From Brachyspira hyodysenteriae ATCC 27164 (lineage in GTDB: Bacteria; Spirochaetota; Brachyspiria; Brachyspirales; Brachyspiraceae), in contig NZ_CP015910.2 in assembly GCF_001676785.2 (NCBI RefSeq), positions 1,426,001 to 1,490,000 on the forward strand: a DNA stretch of 64,000 nt, read 5' to 3'. Both the position numbers and the translations under genes were made by a program. Within the stretch, counting starts at the first letter, position 1, and the number at the start of each line of letters is the position of its first letter. The notes under the pieces were generated by a model. The model ran no database searches, had not been told where the DNA came from, and saw nothing but the letters and a program-made list of their open reading frames with translations. Positions 11,408 to 41,274 of the stretch are shown in pieces.

Positions 11408-11759
11408 TTTTACCCTCTTTTTTACATATTACTCCCAAAAATATATTATATGTAATAACAAAAAATATAATTTTTAGTAAAATAATATTTTGAAAATAAT
11501 TGCTCGTAATTTTTATAATTGTTTGGAATATTAGATAAAAGCTCAATGATTCGCTAAAATAAATGAAATTAATGTTTATACTTTTTATTTTTTATAATAT
11601 AAATATTTATAACAATAAAAAATTACTAAATAATTGAGACTATCCTAAAAATATAGTTTATAATATATTGGAATTAATTTAAAATTAAATAATATTAACT
11701 TTTTAAATATTTTATTATAAAATATTTAATTGAAAAAACTTCAATAAATATTATTATAG
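11408..11759. other. AT-rich gap at the downstream edge of the sugar locus
   Basis: I see no credible gene in these 352 bases. They hold a perfect AT-only palindrome at 11705-11727 (11-base arms around one base) about 30 bases beyond the stop of the last FkbM-type gene. It could end transcription weakly, but it has no GC stem. Confidence 0.4.
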
Positions 11760-12800
11760 CTAATAAACTTCTGCTATTAACATAGTTTCCACTATAGCTG
11801 TTTGTTCGTTAGGTTTAACAATTTTAAATTTATATCCTAAATTTAAATTATCTATCATAGGTTTTATATCAAAAAAGTCAGAATAATTATGATATATACT
11901 TATCAATAATACAGGTTTTTGTTTCTTTATTGTATTTATAGCGCCTTTTAAAAATGGCTGTTCAAAACCTTCTAAATCAGTTTTTATTAATCCAATTTCT
12001 AGATTATTTTCTTCAACATAACTATCTAAACTAATTATATTAATAGTTTCATCAACTTTATTATAACCCTGAACTTCTTTAGTATTATTTAATGAAATAC
12101 CTGTAGTTACTGTTTCAATATGAGATATTTCTATTTTATCATTATTTTCACCTAAAGCTAAATTTACAGGTATAATATTTTTTTTATTATTTAGTTTTAT
12201 AGTTTTTAACATTAATTCATAGTTTATTTTAATTGGTTCAAAACTATATACATTTTTATTTGTATATTCAGAAAGAACTATTGCAGAATCTCCAATAAAA
12301 GCTCCAGCATCTATTATATTTTTTTCTTTTACATTATTAATATTTTTAATTATTTCTATTCCATGTTTATCATAAAATACGCATATTTCAAAATGATTAA
12401 TTGGAAGTAAATAATTTTTATATATATAACACTCATCATCTATTTTATTTGTCATATTTTGCATATATCTAATAATATTTACACAGTTTTTAGCATCATT
12501 TCCAGTTAAATATACTTTATCATTAATATTTTCAAATTTTTTTATGCGATCAAAAATGATTTTATGAACTATTTCTATACTTTCATCATCTAATTTATGA
12601 ATTAAATTTATATATTTATTCCAAAAATTTTTATCATTTATTATTTCTTCTCTGAATATTTTTACTATATTTTCATCCCATGTTTCTAATGAATTATCAA
12701 TATTATTTTCACATATAGAATTAAGACATAATTTAATATTATTCCTTAATTTTTTAAAAGGAATCCACCATACTATTTCATCTATCACTTTTCTATTCAT
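11760..12800 (-). CDS. FkbM-type methyltransferase with N-terminal WIP tag (cassette A)
   Basis: This 346-residue protein opens with the shared tag VIDEIVWWIPFKKLRNNIK, then about 130 residues of helical sequence unique to this locus, then an FkbM-type SAM-dependent methyltransferase domain: IIDAGAFIGDSAIVL (SAM loop), VYSFEPIKINYEL, PVNLALG and GLIKTDLEGFEQPFLKGA near the end. FkbM enzymes O-methylate sugars or polyketides; in a sugar locus a surface-glycan methylation role is likely. I chose ATG 12800, because GGAG lies 7 bases upstream and the leader ORF stops there with an ATGA overlap; the longer frame would need a TTG. Its leader has 10 pentamer units and is open. It is a paralogue of cassette B. 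Confidence 0.88.
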   Translation of the reverse strand: MNRKVIDEIVWWIPFKKLRNNIKLCLNSICENNIDNSLETWDENIVKIFREEIINDKNFWNKYINLIHKLDDESIEIVHKIIFDRIKKFENINDKVYLTGNDAKNCVNIIRYMQNMTNKIDDECYIYKNYLLPINHFEICVFYDKHGIEIIKNINNVKEKNIIDAGAFIGDSAIVLSEYTNKNVYSFEPIKINYELMLKTIKLNNKKNIIPVNLALGENNDKIEISHIETVTTGISLNNTKEVQGYNKVDETINIISLDSYVEENNLEIGLIKTDLEGFEQPFLKGAINTIKKQKPVLLISIYHNYSDFFDIKPMIDNLNLGYKFKIVKPNEQTAIVETMLIAEVY

Positions 12801-12991
12801 ATATAAACTCCAAGTAAAAAATTGCAATAAAGATACCCTATCAATAGAGATAGGGTTAAATATATTATTAAAATTATATTATTTTTATTATTTAGAATAT
12901 TGGCTTGGCTTGGCTTGGCTTGGCTTGGCTTGGCTTGGCTTGGCTTGGCTTGTAGGAATAAGCCTATTGTTACAATAGGATCGATTAACAT
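12797..12991 (-). CDS. Leader ORF A, 10 pentamer units, coupled (ON frame)
   Basis: This 64-codon ORF starts at ATG 12991, only 6 bases after a TATAAT box. It runs through GLFLQ, then QAKPS repeats from the (GCCAA)10 tract, then ANILNNKN and a strongly hydrophobic segment (IILIIYLTLSLLIGYLY), and ends in a TGA that overlaps the ATG of the FkbM-type gene as ATGA. The reading frame across the repeat is open only when the unit number is 1 modulo 3, as here. The C-terminal half is the same in all three open copies of this module, which supports real translation. The proposed role is to deliver ribosomes to the enzyme start; the peptide may also be a small membrane protein. No homologue is known to me. 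Confidence 0.7.
   Translation of the reverse strand: MLIDPIVTIGLFLQAKPSQAKPSQAKPSQANILNNKNNIILIIYLTLSLLIGYLYCNFLLGVYI
12836..12855 (-). promoter_or_regulatory. Conserved RNA hairpin inside leader A
   Basis: CCCTATC and GATAGGG form a perfect 7-base-pair stem with a 6-base loop, about 25 bases upstream of the enzyme ribosome site. Confidence 0.5.
12900..12949 (-). repeat. Pentanucleotide tract (GCCAA)10 in leader A
   Basis: Ten uninterrupted units read TTGGC on the plus strand and GCCAA on the coding strand. Ten is 1 modulo 3, so leader A is open through to the enzyme. Confidence 0.97.
12963..12979. promoter_or_regulatory. Palindrome at start of leader A
   Basis: CCTATTGT and ACAATAGG form perfect 8-base arms around one base, 12-28 bases inside leader A. 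It is absent from the other three leaders. It could be an operator or an RNA stem, but no protein can be assigned. Confidence 0.35.
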
Positions 12992-12997
12992 ATTGCT

Positions 12998-13025
12998 ATT
13001 ATATACTAATAACTTAAAATATCAA
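12998..13025 (-). promoter_or_regulatory. Promoter of leader A (leaderless architecture)
   Basis: On the minus strand TTGATA (13020-13025), a 16-base spacer and TATAAT (12998-13003) are followed by 6 bases and the leader ATG. The predicted transcript start therefore falls on or beside the ATG. The -35 box begins just after the stop codon of the upstream FkbM-type gene. Confidence 0.7.
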
Positions 13026-13026
13026 G

Positions 13027-14061
13027 TTAATAAATTTCAGCTATTAAAGTAGTTTCTAATATAATGGTATTATCTATAGGTTTTACTATTTTAAATTTAT
13101 AACCTAAATTTAAATCTTCTATCATTGGTTTTATATCAAAAAAATCAGAATAATTATGATATATACTTATTAGTAATACGGGTTTATGCTTTTTTATTGT
13201 ATTTATAGCACCTTTTAAAAATTCTTGCTCAAAGCCTTCTAAATCGGTTTTTATTAATCCAACTTCTAAGTTATTTTTATATACAAATTCATCTAGCGTA
13301 ATCATATTTATAATCTCTTCATTAGTGTAAACATCATTATTGTTATTAATTAATGAGTTGCATCCATTTACAGCATTTTGAGGGTCATAAAATGATGTTA
13401 TTTTACTATTTTCATTACCTAAAGCCAAATTCACAGGTACTATATTTTTTATATTATTTAATTCTATCGTTTTTAACATTATATCATATGTATTTTTAAA
13501 TGGTTCAAAACAATAAACATTTTTGTTTGTATATTTAGACAACATTATACCTGAATCACCAATAAATGCTCCAGCATCTATTATATCACGATTTTTTATA
13601 TTATGTAAATTATTTATATATTCAATACTCAATTTACTGTAAAAAATACACTTTTCAAATTTATTAACTGGTAATACATAATCTTCATAAAGATAACATT
13701 CATCATTTATTTTTATAATTTTTGATAAATATTCATTATACATTTTGACAACAGATTTCAATTCTTCCCCATTGATAATTGACTTATAACTATCAATATT
13801 ATTAATTATTTTGAATACCTTAATTATTATATTTGATATAGTTTCTATACTATCTTTATCTAGATTTTTCATAAGAATTTTATATTTTTTTATAAAATTT
13901 TTATCTTCTTTTAATGATTTTATAAATTTTTTTACCCATTCTATATCATATGCTTCCATTGGATCATCGTCTAATTTATTATTCAGATATATTCTAATAT
14001 TATTTCTTAATTTTTTAAAAGGTATCCACCATACTATTTCATCTATCACTTTTCTATTCAT
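13027..14061 (-). CDS. FkbM-type methyltransferase with N-terminal WIP tag (cassette B)
   Basis: This 344-residue paralogue of cassette A has the tag VIDEIVWWIPFKKLRNNIR, a divergent helical middle and an FkbM domain: IIDAGAFIGDSGIMLSKY, VYCFEPFKNTYDI, PVNLALGNENS, GLIKTDLEGFEQEFLKGA and LLISIYHNYSDFFDIKPMI. A and B agree strongly in the tag and the catalytic C-terminal half but differ in the middle, as expected if the middle sets acceptor choice. ATG 14061 is chosen for its GGAG and for the ATGA overlap with leader B. The first 27 codons are base-for-base identical to cassette C and lie in a 479-bp duplicated block. Glycan O-methylation is likely but unproven. Confidence 0.88.
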   Translation of the reverse strand: MNRKVIDEIVWWIPFKKLRNNIRIYLNNKLDDDPMEAYDIEWVKKFIKSLKEDKNFIKKYKILMKNLDKDSIETISNIIIKVFKIINNIDSYKSIINGEELKSVVKMYNEYLSKIIKINDECYLYEDYVLPVNKFEKCIFYSKLSIEYINNLHNIKNRDIIDAGAFIGDSGIMLSKYTNKNVYCFEPFKNTYDIMLKTIELNNIKNIVPVNLALGNENSKITSFYDPQNAVNGCNSLINNNNDVYTNEEIINMITLDEFVYKNNLEVGLIKTDLEGFEQEFLKGAINTIKKHKPVLLISIYHNYSDFFDIKPMIEDLNLGYKFKIVKPIDNTIILETTLIAEIY

Positions 14062-14252
14062 ATATAAACTCCAAGTAAAAAATTGCAATAAAGATACCCT
14101 ACCAATAGAGATAGGGTTAAATATATTATTAAAATTATATTATTTTTATTATTTAGAATATTGGCTTGGCTTGGCTTGGCTTGGCTTGGCTTGGCTTGGC
14201 TTGGCTTGGCTTGGAATAAGCCTATATTTAATGAGTTAAAAATTATTACCAT
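14058..14252 (-). CDS. Leader ORF B, 10 pentamer units, coupled (ON frame)
   Basis: This 64-codon leader starts at ATG 14252 directly after a strong promoter, with no ribosome binding site and almost no 5' untranslated sequence. It encodes MVIIFNSLNIGLFQ, three QAKPS repeats, then ANILNNKN and the hydrophobic IILIIYLTLSLLVGYLY. The stop TGA (14058-14060) overlaps the enzyme ATG (14059-14061) as ATGA, a classic translational-coupling arrangement. Ten repeat units keep this frame. Removing or adding one or two units would stop translation just after the repeats. Confidence 0.7.
   Translation of the reverse strand: MVIIFNSLNIGLFQAKPSQAKPSQAKPSQANILNNKNNIILIIYLTLSLLVGYLYCNFLLGVYI
14097..14116 (-). 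promoter_or_regulatory. Conserved RNA hairpin inside leader B
   Basis: The coding strand has CCCTATC and GGTAGGG around a 6-base loop, with one pair changed to a T-G wobble relative to leader A. The stem survives as RNA. Confidence 0.5.
14161..14210 (-). repeat. Pentanucleotide tract (GCCAA)10 in leader B
   Basis: Ten perfect units lie inside a 479-bp block that is otherwise identical to the block around leader C, which has eleven units. Confidence 0.97.
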
Positions 14253-14258
14253 ATATTT

Positions 14259-14287
14259 ATTATATATAATAATATAAAAAATATCAA
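14259..14287 (-). promoter_or_regulatory. Promoter of leader B (leaderless architecture)
   Basis: On the minus strand TTGATA (14282-14287), a 17-base spacer and a perfect TATAAT (14259-14264) lie 6 bases before the leader ATG at 14252. The predicted start of transcription is the A of that ATG. Confidence 0.78.
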
Positions 14288-14310
14288 ATTAATAATTTTT
14301 ATATGATATA

Positions 14311-14540
14311 TTAAATATATTCATCTATATTTTTACTAGAAGTTTTCCATGGTATTTCATATTTTCTATTTTTTATATCACAATATTTACATAATGGTAT
14401 TGGTTTAGCAATAAAATTTAATAATTCATCATAACTATTTGCCTTATGTATATCAATATTATCATTTTCCATTGTAGATATATTTTTTTAAAAAATTATT
14501 GAAATAATTAATATAACATGCTATTGGATAGGTAAAAAGT
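14311..14540 (-). pseudogene. Decayed 3' fragment of the radical SAM gene
   Basis: This stretch copies the last roughly 230 bases of the radical SAM gene at 15601-15832, including the stop codon. From 14311 to 14459 the two are identical. Beyond that the fragment has several substitutions and indels that break the frame, and after 14540 the similarity stops. It sits between cassette C and the promoter of leader B. The simplest reading is that cassette C was inserted with a duplicated junction (radical SAM end, promoter, leader, tag), leaving this scar. It has no start and no product. Confidence 0.85.
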
Positions 14541-14578
14541 TTATTCATAAATAATGTTTTATTATTCATACTATAAAT

Positions 14579-15346
14579 TTAAATTGATTTGATTATTACT
14601 CCTACTTGTTGATGATTGGATATTGCTATATATTCATATGTAATATTATATTTTTCACAAAATTCCTTAAAAGCTTTATATTCATGATTTTGCCAATTTG
14701 GATAATTAAAATATTCATCAAAAATTATTATTGTACCAACAATAATTCTATCATATATATTATCAAAAATTATTTTTGTGGAGGAATATAAATCACAATC
14801 TATATGTATGAATATGATTTTTTCTTGATGTTCTTTTAAAAAATCAGGTAAAGTTTTATCAAAATAGCCTTTCACTAAACAAACATTATCATTGACTTTT
14901 GGCATATTTCCACTTAAATCAAAATATCCTTTATTAAAAGTCCAACCTTCCCAGTTATTTGGTAACCCTTCAAATGAATCAAAACCATAAAATTTATTTT
15001 TTTCCATAATTGATGATAATCTATTTATTGAAGTTCCATTAAAAACTCCAAATTCTAAAAAAAGATAATTAGTATTTTTGTATTGAAACAAATAATTATA
15101 GAATATATGTTCATACATATTAACAATATTATCAAAAAGAATAGCATTTAATGCATATTTTTTTATATAATGTATTGTTTCTAATGTAGCCTCTTTTTTT
15201 AAATTGTATATAATTTCTGTATTTTCTTCTGTTATTTTAATTTTATTATCTTTATCTATAAGATAATTCAGATATATTCTAATATTATTTCTTAATTTTT
15301 TAAAAGGTATCCACCATACTATTTCATCTATCACTTTTCTATTCAT
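14579..15346 (-). CDS. TylF-type O-methyltransferase with N-terminal WIP tag (cassette C)
   Basis: This 255-residue protein has the tag VIDEIVWWIPFKKLRNNIR followed by a TylF/MycF-type SAM-dependent methyltransferase domain: YLFLEFGVFNGTSINRLS (SAM loop), FYGFDSFEGLPNNW, FIHIDCDLYSST and IIIFDEYFNYP, where the acidic residues match the metal site of this family. Known members O-methylate deoxysugars, so methylation of a glycan sugar is likely. ATG 15346 is chosen for its GGAG and because it lies where the leader would end. Its leader is out of frame (11 repeat units), so this gene is the one predicted to be translated poorly in this isolate. It shares its first 27 codons exactly with cassette B, though the two enzymes are otherwise unrelated. 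Confidence 0.87.
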   Translation of the reverse strand: MNRKVIDEIVWWIPFKKLRNNIRIYLNYLIDKDNKIKITEENTEIIYNLKKEATLETIHYIKKYALNAILFDNIVNMYEHIFYNYLFQYKNTNYLFLEFGVFNGTSINRLSSIMEKNKFYGFDSFEGLPNNWEGWTFNKGYFDLSGNMPKVNDNVCLVKGYFDKTLPDFLKEHQEKIIFIHIDCDLYSSTKIIFDNIYDRIIVGTIIIFDEYFNYPNWQNHEYKAFKEFCEKYNITYEYIAISNHQQVGVIIKSI

Positions 15347-15381
15347 ATATAAACTCCAAGTAAAAAATTGCAATAAAGATA

Positions 15382-15401
15382 CCCTACCAATAGAGATAGG
15401 G
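15382..15401 (-). promoter_or_regulatory. Conserved RNA hairpin in leader C region
   Basis: Same stem as in leader B (CCCTATC with GGTAGGG). Here it lies downstream of the premature leader stop, so it would not be crossed by leader ribosomes. Confidence 0.5.
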
Positions 15402-15437
15402 TTAAATATATTATTAAAATTATATTATTTTTATTAT

Positions 15438-15542
15438 TTAGAATATTGGCTTGGCTTGGCTTGGCTTGGCTTGGCTTGGCTTGGCTTGGCTTGGCTTGGC
15501 TTGGAATAAGCCTATATTTAATGAGTTAAAAATTATTACCAT
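15438..15542 (-). CDS. Leader ORF C, 11 pentamer units, truncated (OFF frame)
   Basis: This leader starts at ATG 15542 with the same promoter and first 29 residues as leader B. With eleven repeat units the frame ends AKPIF and a TAA at 15438-15440, giving 34 residues without the hydrophobic segment. The stop is about 90 bases before the TylF-type start, too far for coupling. The next unit number (12) would also stop just after the tract; 10 or 13 would restore it. The intact hydrophobic coding sequence is still present downstream in another frame, so this is a reversible frame state, not decay. Confidence 0.7.
   Translation of the reverse strand: MVIIFNSLNIGLFQAKPSQAKPSQAKPSQAKPIF
15446..15500 (-). 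repeat. Pentanucleotide tract (GCCAA)11 in leader C
   Basis: Eleven perfect units, one more than the otherwise identical copy in leader B. Eleven is 2 modulo 3, which closes the leader frame. Confidence 0.97.
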
Positions 15543-15548
15543 ATATTT

Positions 15549-15577
15549 ATTATATATAATAATATAAAAAATATCAA
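15549..15577 (-). promoter_or_regulatory. Promoter of leader C (leaderless architecture)
   Basis: Identical to the leader B promoter: TTGATA (15572-15577), 17-base spacer, TATAAT (15549-15554), 6 bases to the ATG at 15542. Confidence 0.78.
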
Positions 15578-15600
15578 ATTAATAATTTTTATATGATATA

Positions 15601-16542
15601 TTAAATATATTCATCTATATTTTTACTAGAAGTTTTCCATGGTATTTCATATTTTCTATTTTTTATATCACAATATTTACATAATGGTATTGGTTTAGCA
15701 ATAAAATTTAATAATTCATCATAACTATTTGCCTTATGTATATCAATATAATCATTTTCCGTTGTAGGTATATTTTTTCCAAAAAATTTATTGAAATGAT
15801 TAATATAACATGCTATTGGACAGGTAAAAAGTTTTCCATTTTTTAAAGAAGGACATGAATTAGCAAACCAACAAGTTACAAAACTTTCTAAAGCATCTTG
15901 TTTACCATCTACATCAATAGTATATTTATAACTAGTTTTTATTATATCTTTACCTTCTCCATTTGAAACATTTATTTTTACATTATAATTATTACATAAT
16001 TCTATTATTTTATCCCAGTCTATTTTTATAGGATATTTTGTAGCTTCAATTACAATATTATTTTCTTTTAATGATTTCCAAAAATTATCGTCTTTATTTA
16101 CTAGTAATACAGCATTTGTAACTAATTGTATTTCAGAATCTTTAAAATATTTTCTAGACATAGTAAAAAAATCAGGACAATTTGGATGTAATAAAGGTTC
16201 TCCACCCATTAATCTTATTCTTTCTATGTTTCCATTTGTTAATGAAGATAATTGTTTTATATCTTTTTCAAAGATTTCAATATCTAAAAATTCCTTTTCT
16301 GCAATTTGTGAAAAATGTGTACATGATTGACAATTTAAATTACAATGTTCTACAAGATGGATTTCTACTCTATGAAATTTTATTCTAGGTGTAACTCTTC
16401 TAAACATGTTCATTATTTCATCTTTTGTATAAAACTCTGTATTTAATAATCTAGATACATCCTCCAAAAAATATCTTATAGGTCCTCTCCATTTTTTAAA
16501 AGGTATCCACCATACTATTTCATCTATGATTTTTTTATCCAT
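15601..16542 (-). CDS. Radical SAM enzyme with N-terminal WIP tag
   Basis: This 313-residue protein starts with the tag KIIDEIVWWIPFKKWRGPIR and continues into a radical SAM core. CNLNCQSC (Cys67, Cys71, Cys74) is the CxxxCxxC motif that binds the 4Fe-4S cluster, and RLMGGEPLLHP is the SAM-binding GGE motif. The C-terminal part has extra cysteines (TCWFANSC, FTCPIACYI, LCKYCDI) that could hold an auxiliary cluster, as in SPASM-like enzymes. The substrate is unknown; radical SAM proteins of this kind occur in capsule and lipooligosaccharide loci. Start ATG 16542 has GGAGAGGG upstream. Its leader has 13 units and is open, ending 6 bases before this ATG. A decayed copy of the 3' end lies at 14311-14540. 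Confidence 0.87.
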   Translation of the reverse strand: MDKKIIDEIVWWIPFKKWRGPIRYFLEDVSRLLNTEFYTKDEIMNMFRRVTPRIKFHRVEIHLVEHCNLNCQSCTHFSQIAEKEFLDIEIFEKDIKQLSSLTNGNIERIRLMGGEPLLHPNCPDFFTMSRKYFKDSEIQLVTNAVLLVNKDDNFWKSLKENNIVIEATKYPIKIDWDKIIELCNNYNVKINVSNGEGKDIIKTSYKYTIDVDGKQDALESFVTCWFANSCPSLKNGKLFTCPIACYINHFNKFFGKNIPTTENDYIDIHKANSYDELLNFIAKPIPLCKYCDIKNRKYEIPWKTSSKNIDEYI

Positions 16543-16548
16543 TTTATA

Positions 16549-16752
16549 TTACCCTCTCCATAAAAAATTGCAATAAAGATACCCTACCAATAGAGATAGG
16601 GTTAAACATATTATTAAAATTATATTATTTTTATTATTTAGAATATTGGCTTGGCTTGGCTTGGCTTGGCTTGGCTTGGCTTGGCTTGGCTTGGCTTGGC
16701 TTGGCTTGGCTTGGAATAAGCCTAATTTAATCTTGTTAAATGTTACTATCAT
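16549..16752 (-). CDS. Leader ORF of radical SAM gene, 13 pentamer units (ON frame)
   Basis: This 67-codon leader starts at ATG 16752, 7 bases after a -10 box, and encodes MIVTFNKIKLGLFQ, four QAKPS repeats, then ANILNNKN and the hydrophobic IILIICLTLSLLVGYLY. It ends WRG with TAA at 16549-16551, 6 bases before the radical SAM ATG, so the leader stop falls between the enzyme ribosome site and start codon. Thirteen units is again 1 modulo 3. The junction differs from the ATGA type of the other three, which shows that coupling distance is kept although the sequence is not. Confidence 0.7.
   Translation of the reverse strand: MIVTFNKIKLGLFQAKPSQAKPSQAKPSQAKPSQANILNNKNNIILIICLTLSLLVGYLYCNFLWRG
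16582..16601 (-). promoter_or_regulatory. Conserved RNA hairpin inside radical SAM leader
   Basis: Same CCCTATC and GGTAGGG stem with a 6-base loop as in leaders B and C. Confidence 0.5.
16646..16710 (-). repeat. Pentanucleotide tract (GCCAA)13 in radical SAM leader
   Basis: Thirteen perfect units, the longest tract in the window. It is three units longer than tracts A and B, so the frame is preserved. Confidence 0.97.
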
Positions 16753-16759
16753 ATGTCCA

Positions 16760-16788
16760 ATTTTATATCATAATAAAATAATATACAA
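16760..16788 (-). promoter_or_regulatory. Promoter of radical SAM leader
   Basis: TTGTAT (16783-16788), a 17-base spacer and TAAAAT (16760-16765) lie 7 bases before the leader ATG. The sequence is unrelated to the leader B promoter, yet the spacing to the ATG is the same. Confidence 0.6.
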
Positions 16789-16805
16789 CTAAAATATATT
16801 ATTTA

Positions 16806-17978
16806 TTACCAAATACCTATTTTTTTTCTAATGTCATCTCTTTTTTTTCTTCCAGGAATCCACCATAAAATTAAATTAATAGCATTTCTTATAACGGGTA
16901 ATAGTTTATCACAAGTAGAAACTTTTCTTTCTATGTATCTTAACCTATTTTCAAGATCATATTTTTCATCTTGGCATGTTGATATTGGAAATACATCTGG
17001 AAATAATTTTTCATAATAAGTTTTTATTACTTTAAATAGATCCCTATTTTCTTCTCTCTGTACTAAAAAAGATAAATGCACCATAGGAATTTCAGATACT
17101 ATAATTTTTTTATTGTTTTTTCTTGAATAATCAAAACAATAAAATTCGTCATGGGCTTTCCATTTATCTTTTAAAGATTTATCTTCTATATCATTCCAAA
17201 AATTCTTTTTAAATAAAATACAATTAATAGAGAACTGCTGAGTATTGTCTGCTTCATAATATTTGTTAGTATTGCAGCTTGCAATATATTTATCATATTG
17301 CAAAGTTGTTTTTATATGAATCCATCTAGCTATATAAGCAAATTCTATTGGAGAAGCAAAAACTGTATCTTTTATTTCATCTTTTTTATTAACTAAAAAG
17401 GTTTCCATATTATTTTTAATATCATAAGATAAATTATCAGCATTATATTCTCTATCTGAATAATATTTTTTAGCAAAATAATTTCTAGCATATAGTTTAT
17501 GATACTCTTCTTCTAAATCCATATTTTTAATAATTCTTTTAAATCCAAATGGATTATTATTAACTAATGAAGAAACATAAGCTAAGTTATCTTTATATTT
17601 ATTATAAGAATCATTATAACAGTCTAATAATTTTTCTAGCCAATTTTTTGTAAGCGGAAATACATCATCATCCATTTTACATACATATTCATAATTTTCT
17701 AATTCTTTACTATTTATTAAATCTTTTATTCCATAATATGCTCTTTGCGCTCCATATGGTCCTATGACTTTAAAATTGTTAGGATATAATCTTTCATACC
17801 TTTCTGCTACCATTAAAGTTCTTTCACAATCATATGATTCCCATCCATTCATTAAAATAAAAATTTTATAATTTTCAGACATGAATCTTGAATGCATATA
17901 TAAAGCAATTTCAAGAGATTCATAATCCCAACATGCTAATACAATTATTGCTGTTTTTTCTACATAATTATTTTCCAT
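16806..17978 (-). CDS. GT-A-type glycosyltransferase with C-terminal WIP tag
   Basis: This 390-residue protein begins with AIIVLACWDYESLEIALYMHSRF, has a GT-A-like core and a metal-binding acidic motif KMDDDVFPLTKNWLEKLL near residue 107, and later AHDEFYCFDYSRKN. This fits a nucleotide-sugar-dependent glycosyltransferase acting at the cytoplasmic membrane face; donor and acceptor are unknown. The last 25 residues contain AINLILWWIPGRKKRDDIR, the same tag that the neighbouring cassettes carry at the N-terminus. The gene follows glf by 23 bases, so the two form a transcription unit, and it has no repeat leader. GGAG lies about 11 bases before ATG 17978. Confidence 0.8.
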   Translation of the reverse strand: MENNYVEKTAIIVLACWDYESLEIALYMHSRFMSENYKIFILMNGWESYDCERTLMVAERYERLYPNNFKVIGPYGAQRAYYGIKDLINSKELENYEYVCKMDDDVFPLTKNWLEKLLDCYNDSYNKYKDNLAYVSSLVNNNPFGFKRIIKNMDLEEEYHKLYARNYFAKKYYSDREYNADNLSYDIKNNMETFLVNKKDEIKDTVFASPIEFAYIARWIHIKTTLQYDKYIASCNTNKYYEADNTQQFSINCILFKKNFWNDIEDKSLKDKWKAHDEFYCFDYSRKNNKKIIVSEIPMVHLSFLVQREENRDLFKVIKTYYEKLFPDVFPISTCQDEKYDLENRLRYIERKVSTCDKLLPVIRNAINLILWWIPGRKKRDDIRKKIGIW

Positions 17979-18001
17979 TTTATTATATTCTCCAGCATAA
18001 A

Positions 18002-19114
18002 TTAAAATTTAAAATTATCCATAAAATTTAATACTCTTTCTACGGCATTATCCATATTATAATATTTATAATCACCCAATCTTCCAAGAATATATACATT
18101 ATTTAATTTATTTATTTCAGTTAAATATTTATTATATAAATTTCTATTTATGTCATTTTCAATTGGATAATATCTATCGTTTCTATTTATATCAAACATT
18201 TCAGAATATTCTATTGAGATAATAGTTTTATTAGAATATTCATCCAAGAAATGCTTATGCTCTATTATCCTAGTAAAATCATAATTATTTGGGTAATTAA
18301 TAACTGATGTCTCTTGATAATATTCTTTATTTATAGTGATATTTTCAAAATATATAGATCTATAAGGTAATATCCCATATTTATAATTAAAAAAATCATC
18401 TATCGAGCCAGTATAAAATATATATTGAAAATCTTTATTTTTTATATCAGAAAAATTAGTATTTAGATTTATATGTATATTTTCATGATCTATTAATTTT
18501 TCTATTAATTTAGTATACCCATTTGATGGTATTCCTTGATATATGTCCTGAAAATATCTATCGTCATTTGAAATATATATTGGTACCCTAGAAATTACAG
18601 AAGCATCAATATCATTAGGAGATATCCCCCATTGTTTAATAGTGTAATTTTCAAATATGTTTTTATATACATATTGGTAAATAAATTTTATATCTTTATC
18701 ATCATTTTCTTTAAAATCTAAAATAGATATTTTTGAACCATATTCATATTTATCCAATAATTTTGATATTATTCTGTTAGATATATTATGTGGAAATATT
18801 TCTTCTATAGTTTTTAAATTAAAAGGAATTGTTACTTTACTACCTTCTACTACAGCTTTAACTTTATGGAAGTAATAATTCCAAGATGTATATTTAGATA
18901 AATAATCCCATACTTTTTTATTATTTGTATGAAAAATATGGGCTCCATATTTATGAATAGTTATACCAATTTCGTTTTTGTAATCGTAACAATTACCAGC
19001 TATATGATTTCTTTTGTCTATTAAAAGTACATTTTTATTATAACAATTTGCTAGTATGTTTGCAAGGCATGATCCTGTTATTCCAGCTCCCACTACTAAA
19101 CAATCATAATGCAT
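18002..19114 (-). CDS. glf: UDP-galactopyranose mutase
   Basis: It converts UDP-galactopyranose to UDP-galactofuranose, the donor for galactofuranose in surface glycans, using reduced FAD. The 370-residue length is typical. Visible motifs are the FAD dinucleotide fold VVGAGITGSCLA at the N-terminus, RNHIAGNCYD, YGAHIFHTNNKKVWDYL, the central IKQWG segment and ILGRLGDYKYYNMD near the C-terminus, all characteristic of Glf. It lacks the WIP tag, as expected for a soluble enzyme making a donor. It opens the minus-strand sugar locus and is followed by a glycosyltransferase that may use its product. AGG precedes the ATG by about 9 bases. Confidence 0.95.
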   Translation of the reverse strand: MHYDCLVVGAGITGSCLANILANCYNKNVLLIDKRNHIAGNCYDYKNEIGITIHKYGAHIFHTNNKKVWDYLSKYTSWNYYFHKVKAVVEGSKVTIPFNLKTIEEIFPHNISNRIISKLLDKYEYGSKISILDFKENDDKDIKFIYQYVYKNIFENYTIKQWGISPNDIDASVISRVPIYISNDDRYFQDIYQGIPSNGYTKLIEKLIDHENIHINLNTNFSDIKNKDFQYIFYTGSIDDFFNYKYGILPYRSIYFENITINKEYYQETSVINYPNNYDFTRIIEHKHFLDEYSNKTIISIEYSEMFDINRNDRYYPIENDINRNLYNKYLTEINKLNNVYILGRLGDYKYYNMDNAVERVLNFMDNFKF

Positions 19115-19329
19115 ATATTTACCTATAATTATAATTAAGTTTATTAATTATAATTTAATTTTTAAAAAAAGTCAATTATATTGATATATACATAAATAAT
19201 ATACTATTAATTAACTATATTATTTATAAAAAATATATCAATCAAATAATAAAAGATGTAATTTTTTAATAATTATTAACATAATTATAATTATTGGAAA
19301 TTGATTAAATATATGGAGATATTGTGTAT

Positions 19330-20424
19330 ATGAATAGAGAAATGCATATATGTACTATAGCTAGCGGACACAATTTTGCAATATATGCTGCTACATTATT
19401 AGTATCTATACTTGAAAATTCTGATAAAGATGATTTTTTTATTTTTCATATAATTACTGCAGATATAAGTGAAGATGATAAGAATAAAATAATTGAACTA
19501 AAAAATATTAAAAATTGTGATATAATTTTTCATTATATAACAAATATAGAAAAGTATAAAAAATGGGTAAATGATTCCAATGGATGTGTATTAGAAAGAT
19601 GGTCATATCATATATTTTTTAAATTAGAAATAATGAATGTTCTTTCAGATTTAGATAAAGTGCTATTTTTAGATGCAGATACTATAGTTCTTAGGAATCT
19701 TAGAGATATATTCAAAATTGATATAGAAAATTACTATATTGCTACAGTTTGCGGTATAGAATTATCTGTTATCAATTATATAGGTGAAGAGGGTTATATA
19801 ATAAAAAATGGACATAGTACAGTTGAAAATTTTAAGGAAAATATGCATATTAATAATGATTCATCAATACAAAGAAATGTTAAACATAAAAACGTAGAAA
19901 CTTGGTTTAGTACAGGATTTATGTATATGAATTTAAAATATTTAAGAAATATTTTAAATGAAAATAAAATTGAAGAATTAATAACAAATTGTATTAATAG
20001 TGGAGAAATTTTTGGAGATGAAGTAATATTTAATTATTTTATAGAAGATGATAAAATATTAAAGTTGAATGATAATTATCATGTAACAAATGCAATATGG
20101 TTAAAAGAAGATTGTTTAGATATATATGTTGCTCATTTTGCTCCAAAAATGTTTAACTTATTTAATATGCCAAAAACAAAAAATCAAATATATTTAAAAG
20201 CATTAAAATATTTTTCACAAACTCTTTGGTTTAAAGAAGATCCTATTTACTATATTAATATGCTGTTAGAAGAAAAAAGTAATTACTATGAAAAATTATT
20301 TGATATAAAATTATTTGCTATAATTGATATGATAGTATGGTTTATACCGTTTAGAAAAAAAAGAGATGAAATAAGGAAAAAAATGGTAGATAAAATAAAA
20401 AACATAAAATATTTAATAAATTAA
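19330..20424 (+). CDS. Family 8 glycosyltransferase with C-terminal WIP tag
   Basis: This is a GT8-type (LPS galactosyl/glucosyltransferase-like) protein of about 364 residues. The N-terminus MHICTIASGHNFAIYAATLLVSIL and the DxD motif in VLFLDADTIVLRNLRDIF (metal and nucleotide-sugar binding) are typical, as is the later TGFMYMNLKYLRN. Residues 330-355 carry IIDMIVWFIPFRKKRDEIR, the shared tag, here at the C-terminus with a Lys-rich tail. ATG 19330 (MNRE) is preferred because its context matches the starts of the cassettes. GTG 19324, 5 bases after GGAG (19315-19318), is an equally spaced alternative. It is divergent from glf across 209 AT-rich bases. Confidence 0.85.
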   Translation: MNREMHICTIASGHNFAIYAATLLVSILENSDKDDFFIFHIITADISEDDKNKIIELKNIKNCDIIFHYITNIEKYKKWVNDSNGCVLERWSYHIFFKLEIMNVLSDLDKVLFLDADTIVLRNLRDIFKIDIENYYIATVCGIELSVINYIGEEGYIIKNGHSTVENFKENMHINNDSSIQRNVKHKNVETWFSTGFMYMNLKYLRNILNENKIEELITNCINSGEIFGDEVIFNYFIEDDKILKLNDNYHVTNAIWLKEDCLDIYVAHFAPKMFNLFNMPKTKNQIYLKALKYFSQTLWFKEDPIYYINMLLEEKSNYYEKLFDIKLFAIIDMIVWFIPFRKKRDEIRKKMVDKIKNIKYLIN

Positions 20425-40470: not shown

Positions 40471-41274
40471 TTAGAATCTACCACCTTTTTCAGAAATCAA
40501 CTTCGTTATTTTACTATTATTTTTAGTTATTGCATAATATAATGCTGTGTTTACATCTTTATCTTTAGCATTAAGATCAGCTCCAGCTTCTATCAATAAC
40601 TCAGCTAATTCTGTATTATAATCAAAAATTACCCACATTAAAGTAGTAATATTTTCTAATTGTATATTTCTTGAATCATCTTTTATAGATAATCTAGTAT
40701 TAACATTAGCACCAGCTTTTATTAATAATTCAGCTACTTCTTTATCTACATTAAATGTCAAAGGAGTAAAATCTTTTAAATATAATCCATCTGTCTTGAA
40801 TGATACTTTTGTATTTACATCAGATTTTCTTTTTATAAGCATTTTTGATAAATCTGTTTTCTCACGCTGTATAGCATGTATTAAAGCTGTAAATCCCGAA
40901 TTGTCTTTTATATTAACATTAGCACCTTTTTCTATAAGTAACTCTGCTATTTCATATCATTCATAAATAATAGATAAAATTAAAGGTGTAGCACTGCTTT
41001 CTTTCTCTTTTTTATTGAGATCTGCACCTTTTTCTATTAGCAGCTTTGCTATTTCATCTTGCTTATAAATGATAGATAACATCAAAGGTGTAGCACCATC
41101 AATAATATCTAAATTTATATTGACTTTTTTATTATTTAAAAAATCTAAAACTTCTTCTTTATTACCATTCGCTATATATGATACAAATTCTTTTTTATCT
41201 TTACTAAGTTCTGGATACAGTGCATTGAAGCTAAATAAAGTATACAATATTGCCATCAATACAATTTTTTTCAT
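40471..41274 (-). pseudogene. Ankyrin-repeat protein gene broken by in-frame TGA
   Basis: The frame from ATG 41274 starts with a signal peptide (MKKIVLMAILYTLFSFNALYP) and ankyrin repeats, meets TGA at 40957-40959, and continues in the same frame with further ankyrin repeats (YEIAELLIEKGANVNIKD) to a stop at 40471. No frameshift is needed to join the parts. In the paralogue at 41491-42189 the matching position is glutamine (IIFKQDEIAK against IIYE-stop-YEIAE). So this is a 267-codon gene inactivated by one nonsense change with nearby substitutions. A truncated 105-residue product could still be made. It is a tandem duplicate of the next gene upstream. Confidence 0.85.

Follow-up and report, generated by a model that had tools for sequence, protein, structure and literature searches.

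A portable promoter-leader-repeat cassette as a candidate phase-variable switchboard for glycan enzymes and lipoproteins in Brachyspira

Within a 64,000-nucleotide stretch of the Brachyspira hyodysenteriae ATCC 27164 genome (NZ_CP015910.2, positions 1,426,001 to 1,490,000; here called the window, with positions counted from its first letter), four successive glycan enzyme genes are each preceded by a promoter-like sequence and a leader open reading frame (ORF) with a (GCCAA)n tract. We regard it as quite likely that each of these modules is a phase-variable expression switch combining reading of the leader, a hairpin and stop-start coupling. A real switch appears likely because, in a comparison across Brachyspira, the leader frame is kept while the tract length drifts, a stop lies at the downstream start in many lineages and the phases look random. 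On balance, we also favour the broader view of a genus-wide combinatorial switchboard, in which a portable promoter-leader-repeat cassette with leaderless leader ORFs would have been copied, N-terminal enzyme tag included, to positions before unrelated glycan enzymes, while related modules would drive lipoproteins, anti-termination would act along with stop-start coupling, and at least two repeat units would be in use.

In the mechanism that we propose, a sigma-70-type promoter would yield an mRNA starting at or next to the leader ATG, where a ribosome would enter without a Shine-Dalgarno site and read the GCCAA tract. Slippage of the tract would set the frame, with one of three phases being right. 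In this phase the ribosome would cross the weakly constrained coda that follows the tract, keep a terminator-like hairpin from forming and stop on or beside the start codon of the enzyme, at which enzyme translation would begin. In the two other phases the ribosome would leave at most 12 nt past the tract, the hairpin could form, the enzyme start would receive no incoming ribosome and expression would fall. It is from sequence that we infer translation of the leader, slippage within a culture and an enzyme level that follows the phase.

All four tracts lie on the minus strand, and each module has, in this order, a promoter, the leader ATG, 42 nt, (GCCAA)n, the coda, the hairpin, a ribosome site and the enzyme. 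An earlier note on this DNA had counted 10, 10, 11 and 13 units and had named two FkbM-type, one TylF-type and one radical SAM gene as the targets; the counts were confirmed, every tract being perfect, and Pfam agrees on the enzymes. Chance is excluded as the source of these tracts. Translation of the modules bore out the claim that only n = 1 modulo 3 carries the leader, then 64-67 amino acids (aa) long, to the enzyme start, while the other two phases end at a stop 8 or 12 nt past the tract. The leader stop and the enzyme start, said to overlap or to be 6 bases apart, indeed share bases as ATGA in modules 1-3 and are separated by 6 nt in module 4. As assembled, modules 1, 2 and 4 are in the reading phase and the TylF module 3 (n = 11) is out of phase. 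The tracts thus resemble those of translational simple sequence repeat (SSR) contingency loci in being perfect, in having a unit that is not a multiple of three and in a frame openness that would be set by n modulo 3, although they sit in a separate leader ORF and not, as in the classical form, within the controlled gene. The "up to 16 states" of the earlier note is arithmetic for four switches.

The comparison covered 26 Brachyspira genomes, labelled G000 to G025, with G000 holding the window; L numbers denote individual loci. In 23 of 26 GCCAA-type modules, one of the frames reaches its stop no more than 25 nt from the downstream start; dinucleotide-shuffled codas give an expectation of 5.4. 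Seven modules, belonging to five species, show the exact ATGA overlap, so that the placement of an upstream stop near or over a downstream start, as in coupled genes, is kept in relatives. The module families of the window, of G001, of the first contig of G002 (G002-C1) and of the lipoprotein genes have codas unrelated to one another. Tract phases look random across the GCCAA modules: 11 are in the reading phase (ON) and 12 are OFF among 23, with 9.3 ON expected at random (p = 0.53). Single loci vary the pattern. L189 retains two repeat units (n = 2) and a frame still open to 10 nt before its gene; L226, also with two units, is closed as it stands; in L256, one phase joins the leader to the lipoprotein without an intervening stop. 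Two modules upstream of a lipoprotein gene, L179 (G004:C1:253248) and L195 (G005:C11:752864), have no GCCAA units. On inspection by eye, A9 in L179 leaves the leader frame open as far as an ATGA overlap and A8 in L195 brings an early stop; the poly-A run may here have replaced GCCAA as the switch.

A promoter in each module had been claimed, and promoter-like sequence was found at all four, three of which match 11 of 12 positions and are among the four best of the region. In 26 of 28 GCCAA-type modules the -10 hexamer ends 5-8 nt (most commonly 6) before the leader ATG, versus 11 of 43 control ORFs of the window; with stricter boxes (-10 at least 5/6, -35 at least 4/6) the counts are 16 of 28 and 1 of 43. 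Because the -10 sits so close to the ATG, the leader mRNA is probably leaderless, and under standard promoter geometry the transcript would begin at the leader ATG itself. The tract starts 42 nt after this ATG and lies downstream of the predicted transcription start.

All features of the four modules are on the minus strand. In module 1, the promoter (TTGATA-16-TATAAT, 12998..13025) has a -10 ending 6 nt upstream of the leader ATG and is followed by a leader ORF of 64 aa in the reading phase (12797..12991, ATGA overlap with the enzyme start), which holds the tract (GCCAA)10 (12900..12949) and the terminator-like hairpin ACCCTATCTCTATTGATAGGGT (12835..12856, dG -11.9), and by FkbM-type methyltransferase gene 1 (11760..12800, 346 aa, PF05050). 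Module 2 has a promoter TTGATA-17-TATAAT (14259..14287), a 64-aa leader in the reading phase with ATGA overlap (14058..14252), a tract (GCCAA)10 (14161..14210), a hairpin (14096..14117, dG -11.3) and FkbM-type methyltransferase gene 2 (13027..14061, 344 aa, PF05050). The promoter of module 3 (15549..15577) has the same boxes and spacing as that of module 2; its leader as assembled has 34 aa and stops 8 nt past the tract (15438..15542), predicting an OFF state, and its tract (GCCAA)11 (15446..15500) and hairpin (15381..15402, dG -11.3) precede the TylF-type methyltransferase gene (14579..15346, 255 aa, PF05711). Module 4 carries a promoter TTGTAT-17-TAAAAT (16760..16788; the 17-nt placement of the -35 was made by eye) with a -10 ending 7 nt upstream of the leader ATG, a 67-aa leader in the reading phase, the stop of which ends 6 nt before the enzyme ATG (16549..16752), a tract (GCCAA)13 (16646..16710), a hairpin (16581..16602, dG -11.3) and the radical SAM gene (15601..16542, 313 aa, PF04055). 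Directly 5' of the tract, in the window (12947-12979) and in several module families, a GGCTT or GCTTA can pair with the repeat AAGCC.

Between the tract and the gene, a stem-loop with a T-rich tail is present in 12 of 13 GACAA modules (2.2 expected) and in 9 of 16 GCCAA modules before non-lipoprotein genes (1.9 expected). For all four window hairpins, the stability was matched in 0-1 of 100 shuffles; the stem ACCCTATCTCTATTGGTAGGGT, at -11.3, lies far beyond them. They are situated 44-65 nt past the tract, and the reading-phase leader stop follows at 97-103 nt, so that one frame class stops before the hairpin and another inside or beyond it, as in the pil1 locus of Streptococcus gallolyticus. 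For most GACAA stems the stability is between -16 and -25 kcal/mol, and when nine of them were aligned, 7 of the 17 pairs showed compensatory changes. The long frame of most GACAA modules has its stop within or beyond the stem, and the other frames stop short of it; in several modules, the leader stop is at least 40 nt from the gene and yet inside the hairpin. Since a terminator-like hairpin separates tract and enzyme, transcription attenuation is likely part of the mechanism, and it probably dominates in the GACAA modules. The proposal of a phase switch acting through leader-enzyme coupling is supported in part, by the kept frame, the stop at the downstream start and the random-looking phases, but coupling is probably not the whole mechanism. 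Folding of the coda-to-start region of the four window modules gave no unusual overall stability, just the local hairpin, and masking of the Shine-Dalgarno sequence by RNA structure was rejected on this ground. No match to a known RNA element in Rfam was found in 11600-18100.

Several observations weigh against a combined switch of this kind. The hairpin is absent from all 10 lipoprotein modules, in which coupling must for this reason act alone, and the window hairpins have a poor U-run (AUCUUUAUUG). The enzyme genes bear Shine-Dalgarno-like sequences of their own (GGAG, GAGGG), and for this reason the OFF state may be leaky. Many modules are kin to one another, so that the counts are not independent and the effective number is smaller, and the survey covers the sequence of one genome per species. 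Finally, the coda displays little amino-acid conservation, which fits the act of translation but is no direct proof of it: nonsynonymous differences exceed synonymous ones, and the third-position excess in the lipoprotein family is no more than mild. What is kept seems to be the act of reading, not the peptide itself.

These points bear differently on the alternatives. If attenuation acted by itself, as in pil1, the leader ribosome would keep the terminator open, the enzyme would start afresh from its own Shine-Dalgarno sequence and the ATGA overlap would be incidental. The strong, covarying terminators of the GACAA modules, further terminators in L262, L272 and L226 and the experimental precedent in S. 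gallolyticus speak for this reading, which we nevertheless consider possible but unlikely, as stop-start overlaps recur in independent families, hairpin-free modules included, and the U-runs in the window are weak. The converse, with a hairpin that is no working terminator and out-of-phase leaders that deliver no ribosome to the enzyme start, would suit the tight stop-start spacing, the lipoprotein modules and the same weak U-runs; it is put in doubt to a similar degree by the stability of the window hairpins relative to shuffles and by those GACAA modules in which the leader stop is remote from the gene but within the hairpin.

That there is no switch, and that tracts drift neutrally in an untranslated or irrelevant leader while the enzyme relies for its translation on a ribosome site of its own at any n, is improbable in our view: the enzymes' own Shine-Dalgarno-like sequences and the lack of clear peptide conservation are compatible with it, but in many lineages frame openness, stop placement, -10/ATG spacing and hairpins greatly exceed what would be expected. 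Even less credible is an action at the DNA level, through altered promoter spacing (as in nadA and uspA2) or through recombination at the tract that swaps enzymes behind a common promoter and tag. Duplication of the cassette before unrelated enzymes would accord with the latter, but the tract is located some 42 nt into the predicted transcript, neither between nor upstream of the promoter boxes, which led us to reject promoter-spacing variation, and a reading frame would not be needed. Very little, finally, speaks for a leader that works as a small membrane peptide whose length variation would matter in itself. The coda of the window leaders is hydrophobic (NNIILIIYLTLSLLVGYLYCNFLL), but the codas of the other families bear no sequence relationship to it, with lysine-rich ones in the lipoprotein modules; with no Pfam or PHROGs match of the leader peptide above threshold and little conservation, a functional peptide was rejected. 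The combination of attenuation and stop-start coupling remains the reading that we prefer.

All four modules of the window are duplicates of each other. Over a shared stretch of 572 bp, modules 2 and 3 are 97.4% identical, but the module 3 tract has one unit more; such a difference would be expected from slippage after duplication, whereas an assembly error is possible but not indicated. The stretch of identity takes in the last 230 nt of the radical SAM gene, the promoter and the leader, and breaks off at about enzyme codon 28. Promoter, switch and N-terminal tag (MNRKVIDEIVWWIPFKKLRNNIR) were therefore transferred together, as a unit, to an unrelated enzyme, and the duplication brought with it a dead 3'-end copy of the radical SAM gene (14311..14542, minus strand). 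The tag has 23 matches in G000, weaker ones counted, with or without a module, and no match pointing to a plasmid or phage origin of the cassette was found. A short motif (D-IVWWIPFKKLRN-IR) is common to unrelated glycan enzymes of window 11760-20424. It is N-terminal in the switched genes, lies near the C-terminus in 16806-17978, 19324-20424 and a 324-aa gene near C1:1106800, and also occurs on the plasmid contig; possibly, it is a membrane or docking tag. Elsewhere in the window, a 102-bp near-tandem duplication was noted at 40904-41096, apparently within a coding region.

G000 consists of about 3.04 Mb and a second contig of 32.6 kb, whose identity to plasmids of Brachyspira hyodysenteriae reaches 99%. 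Beyond the window it has two further tracts, GCCAA n = 14 (C1:1949757) and GACAA n = 9 (C1:1107804), the latter preceding a 324-aa gene with the same WWIP-type motif. The former (L304, 2258-2327) opens a GT8-like frame that, in the open phase, comes to a stop after 173 codons; with a GT8 gene just downstream, this is probably a broken switched gene. Across the genus, 28 GCCAA tracts were found in 13 of the 26 genomes and 21 GACAA tracts in 14, that is, 20 genomes for both together. Among 393 Spirochaetota genomes from 168 genera, long GCCAA tracts are confined to Brachyspira; unrelated GCCAA tracts in other phyla were among the matches listed, so GCCAA as such is not peculiar to the genus. The earlier note had suggested a search of other Brachyspira for the leader segment next to sugar genes. 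With the window coda alone as DNA query, just the four window copies and short weak matches were recovered, but GCCAA modules do precede glycan-type enzymes in G002, G014 and G018 as well as in G000, and precede a large lipoprotein family in G005, G008, G009, G014, G017 and G022. Single loci also show exchange of parts: at L233/L286 (G025:C1:2134636), (GACAA)18 and a strong terminator precede a VWWIPFKKLRN enzyme, the layout being kept and the repeat unit replaced, and at L178/L270 (G005:C8:514242), tract and lipoprotein coda are intact and other sequence has replaced the usual promoter and leader start.

If the model is correct, a clonal population would be mixed, in surface-glycan states for the swine dysentery agent and in lipoprotein states for other species. 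This would bear on serotyping, vaccine antigens and strain comparison, and any one assembly would capture a single random state. The model would also mean that repeat-in-leader control, to our knowledge otherwise known from one streptococcus, is present in a distant phylum as well and lends itself to multiplication as a cassette. With their apparently leaderless leaders, the modules would make it possible to test whether a ribosome that starts on a leaderless mRNA can supply a coupled gene downstream. In the literature searched, no report of repeat-driven phase variation in Brachyspira was found.

In the Haemophilus lic genes, Neisseria opa and lgt and the Campylobacter lipooligosaccharide (LOS) genes, slippage of short repeats shifts the frame of surface glycan or protein genes. 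There the tract is inside the controlled gene, whereas in Brachyspira it is mostly in a separate ORF; L256 and the GACAA loci of G019 resemble the classical fused kind. Gene pairs coupled by ATGA overlap share with modules 1-3 the common bases of stop and start but usually are without repeat switching. In promoter-type repeat variation, as in uspA2, the repeats are upstream of the controlled gene, like the Brachyspira tracts, but they alter promoter elements or the 5' untranslated region (UTR) and no reading frame is involved; nadA is another example of this type (PMC2791445).

The closest relatives are pil1 and pil3 of S. gallolyticus, for which phase variation by attenuation with pentanucleotide repeats in a separate leader peptide was shown experimentally (Danne et al. 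2014, PMC3894217). The earlier note had seen no description of a switch in a separate leader peptide reused before unrelated enzymes; for the separate repeat-bearing leader peptide it is corrected by this precedent, and the general idea is already known. In pil1, (GCAGA)n is combined with a terminator, and it depends on the number of repeats whether the leader stops short of the hairpin or at/beyond it; the antitermination half of our proposed mechanism is thereby established by experiment in that species (PMC3894217). Both systems have pentanucleotide repeats in a separate leader ORF downstream of a promoter, and the terminator hairpin between leader and gene has a terminator-like counterpart in many Brachyspira modules. 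They differ in the repeat unit (GCAGA compared to GCCAA or GACAA), in the ribosome site on the pil1 leader where the GCCAA leaders look leaderless, and in the phases, two ON and one OFF in pil1 and mostly one ON in Brachyspira, where the ON stop also meets the next start. The Brachyspira targets, moreover, are glycan enzymes and lipoproteins, with many copies across a genus of spirochaetes. What is new here is that the cassette is genus-wide, that its leaders appear to be leaderless, that stop and start overlap and that it was copied before unrelated enzymes.

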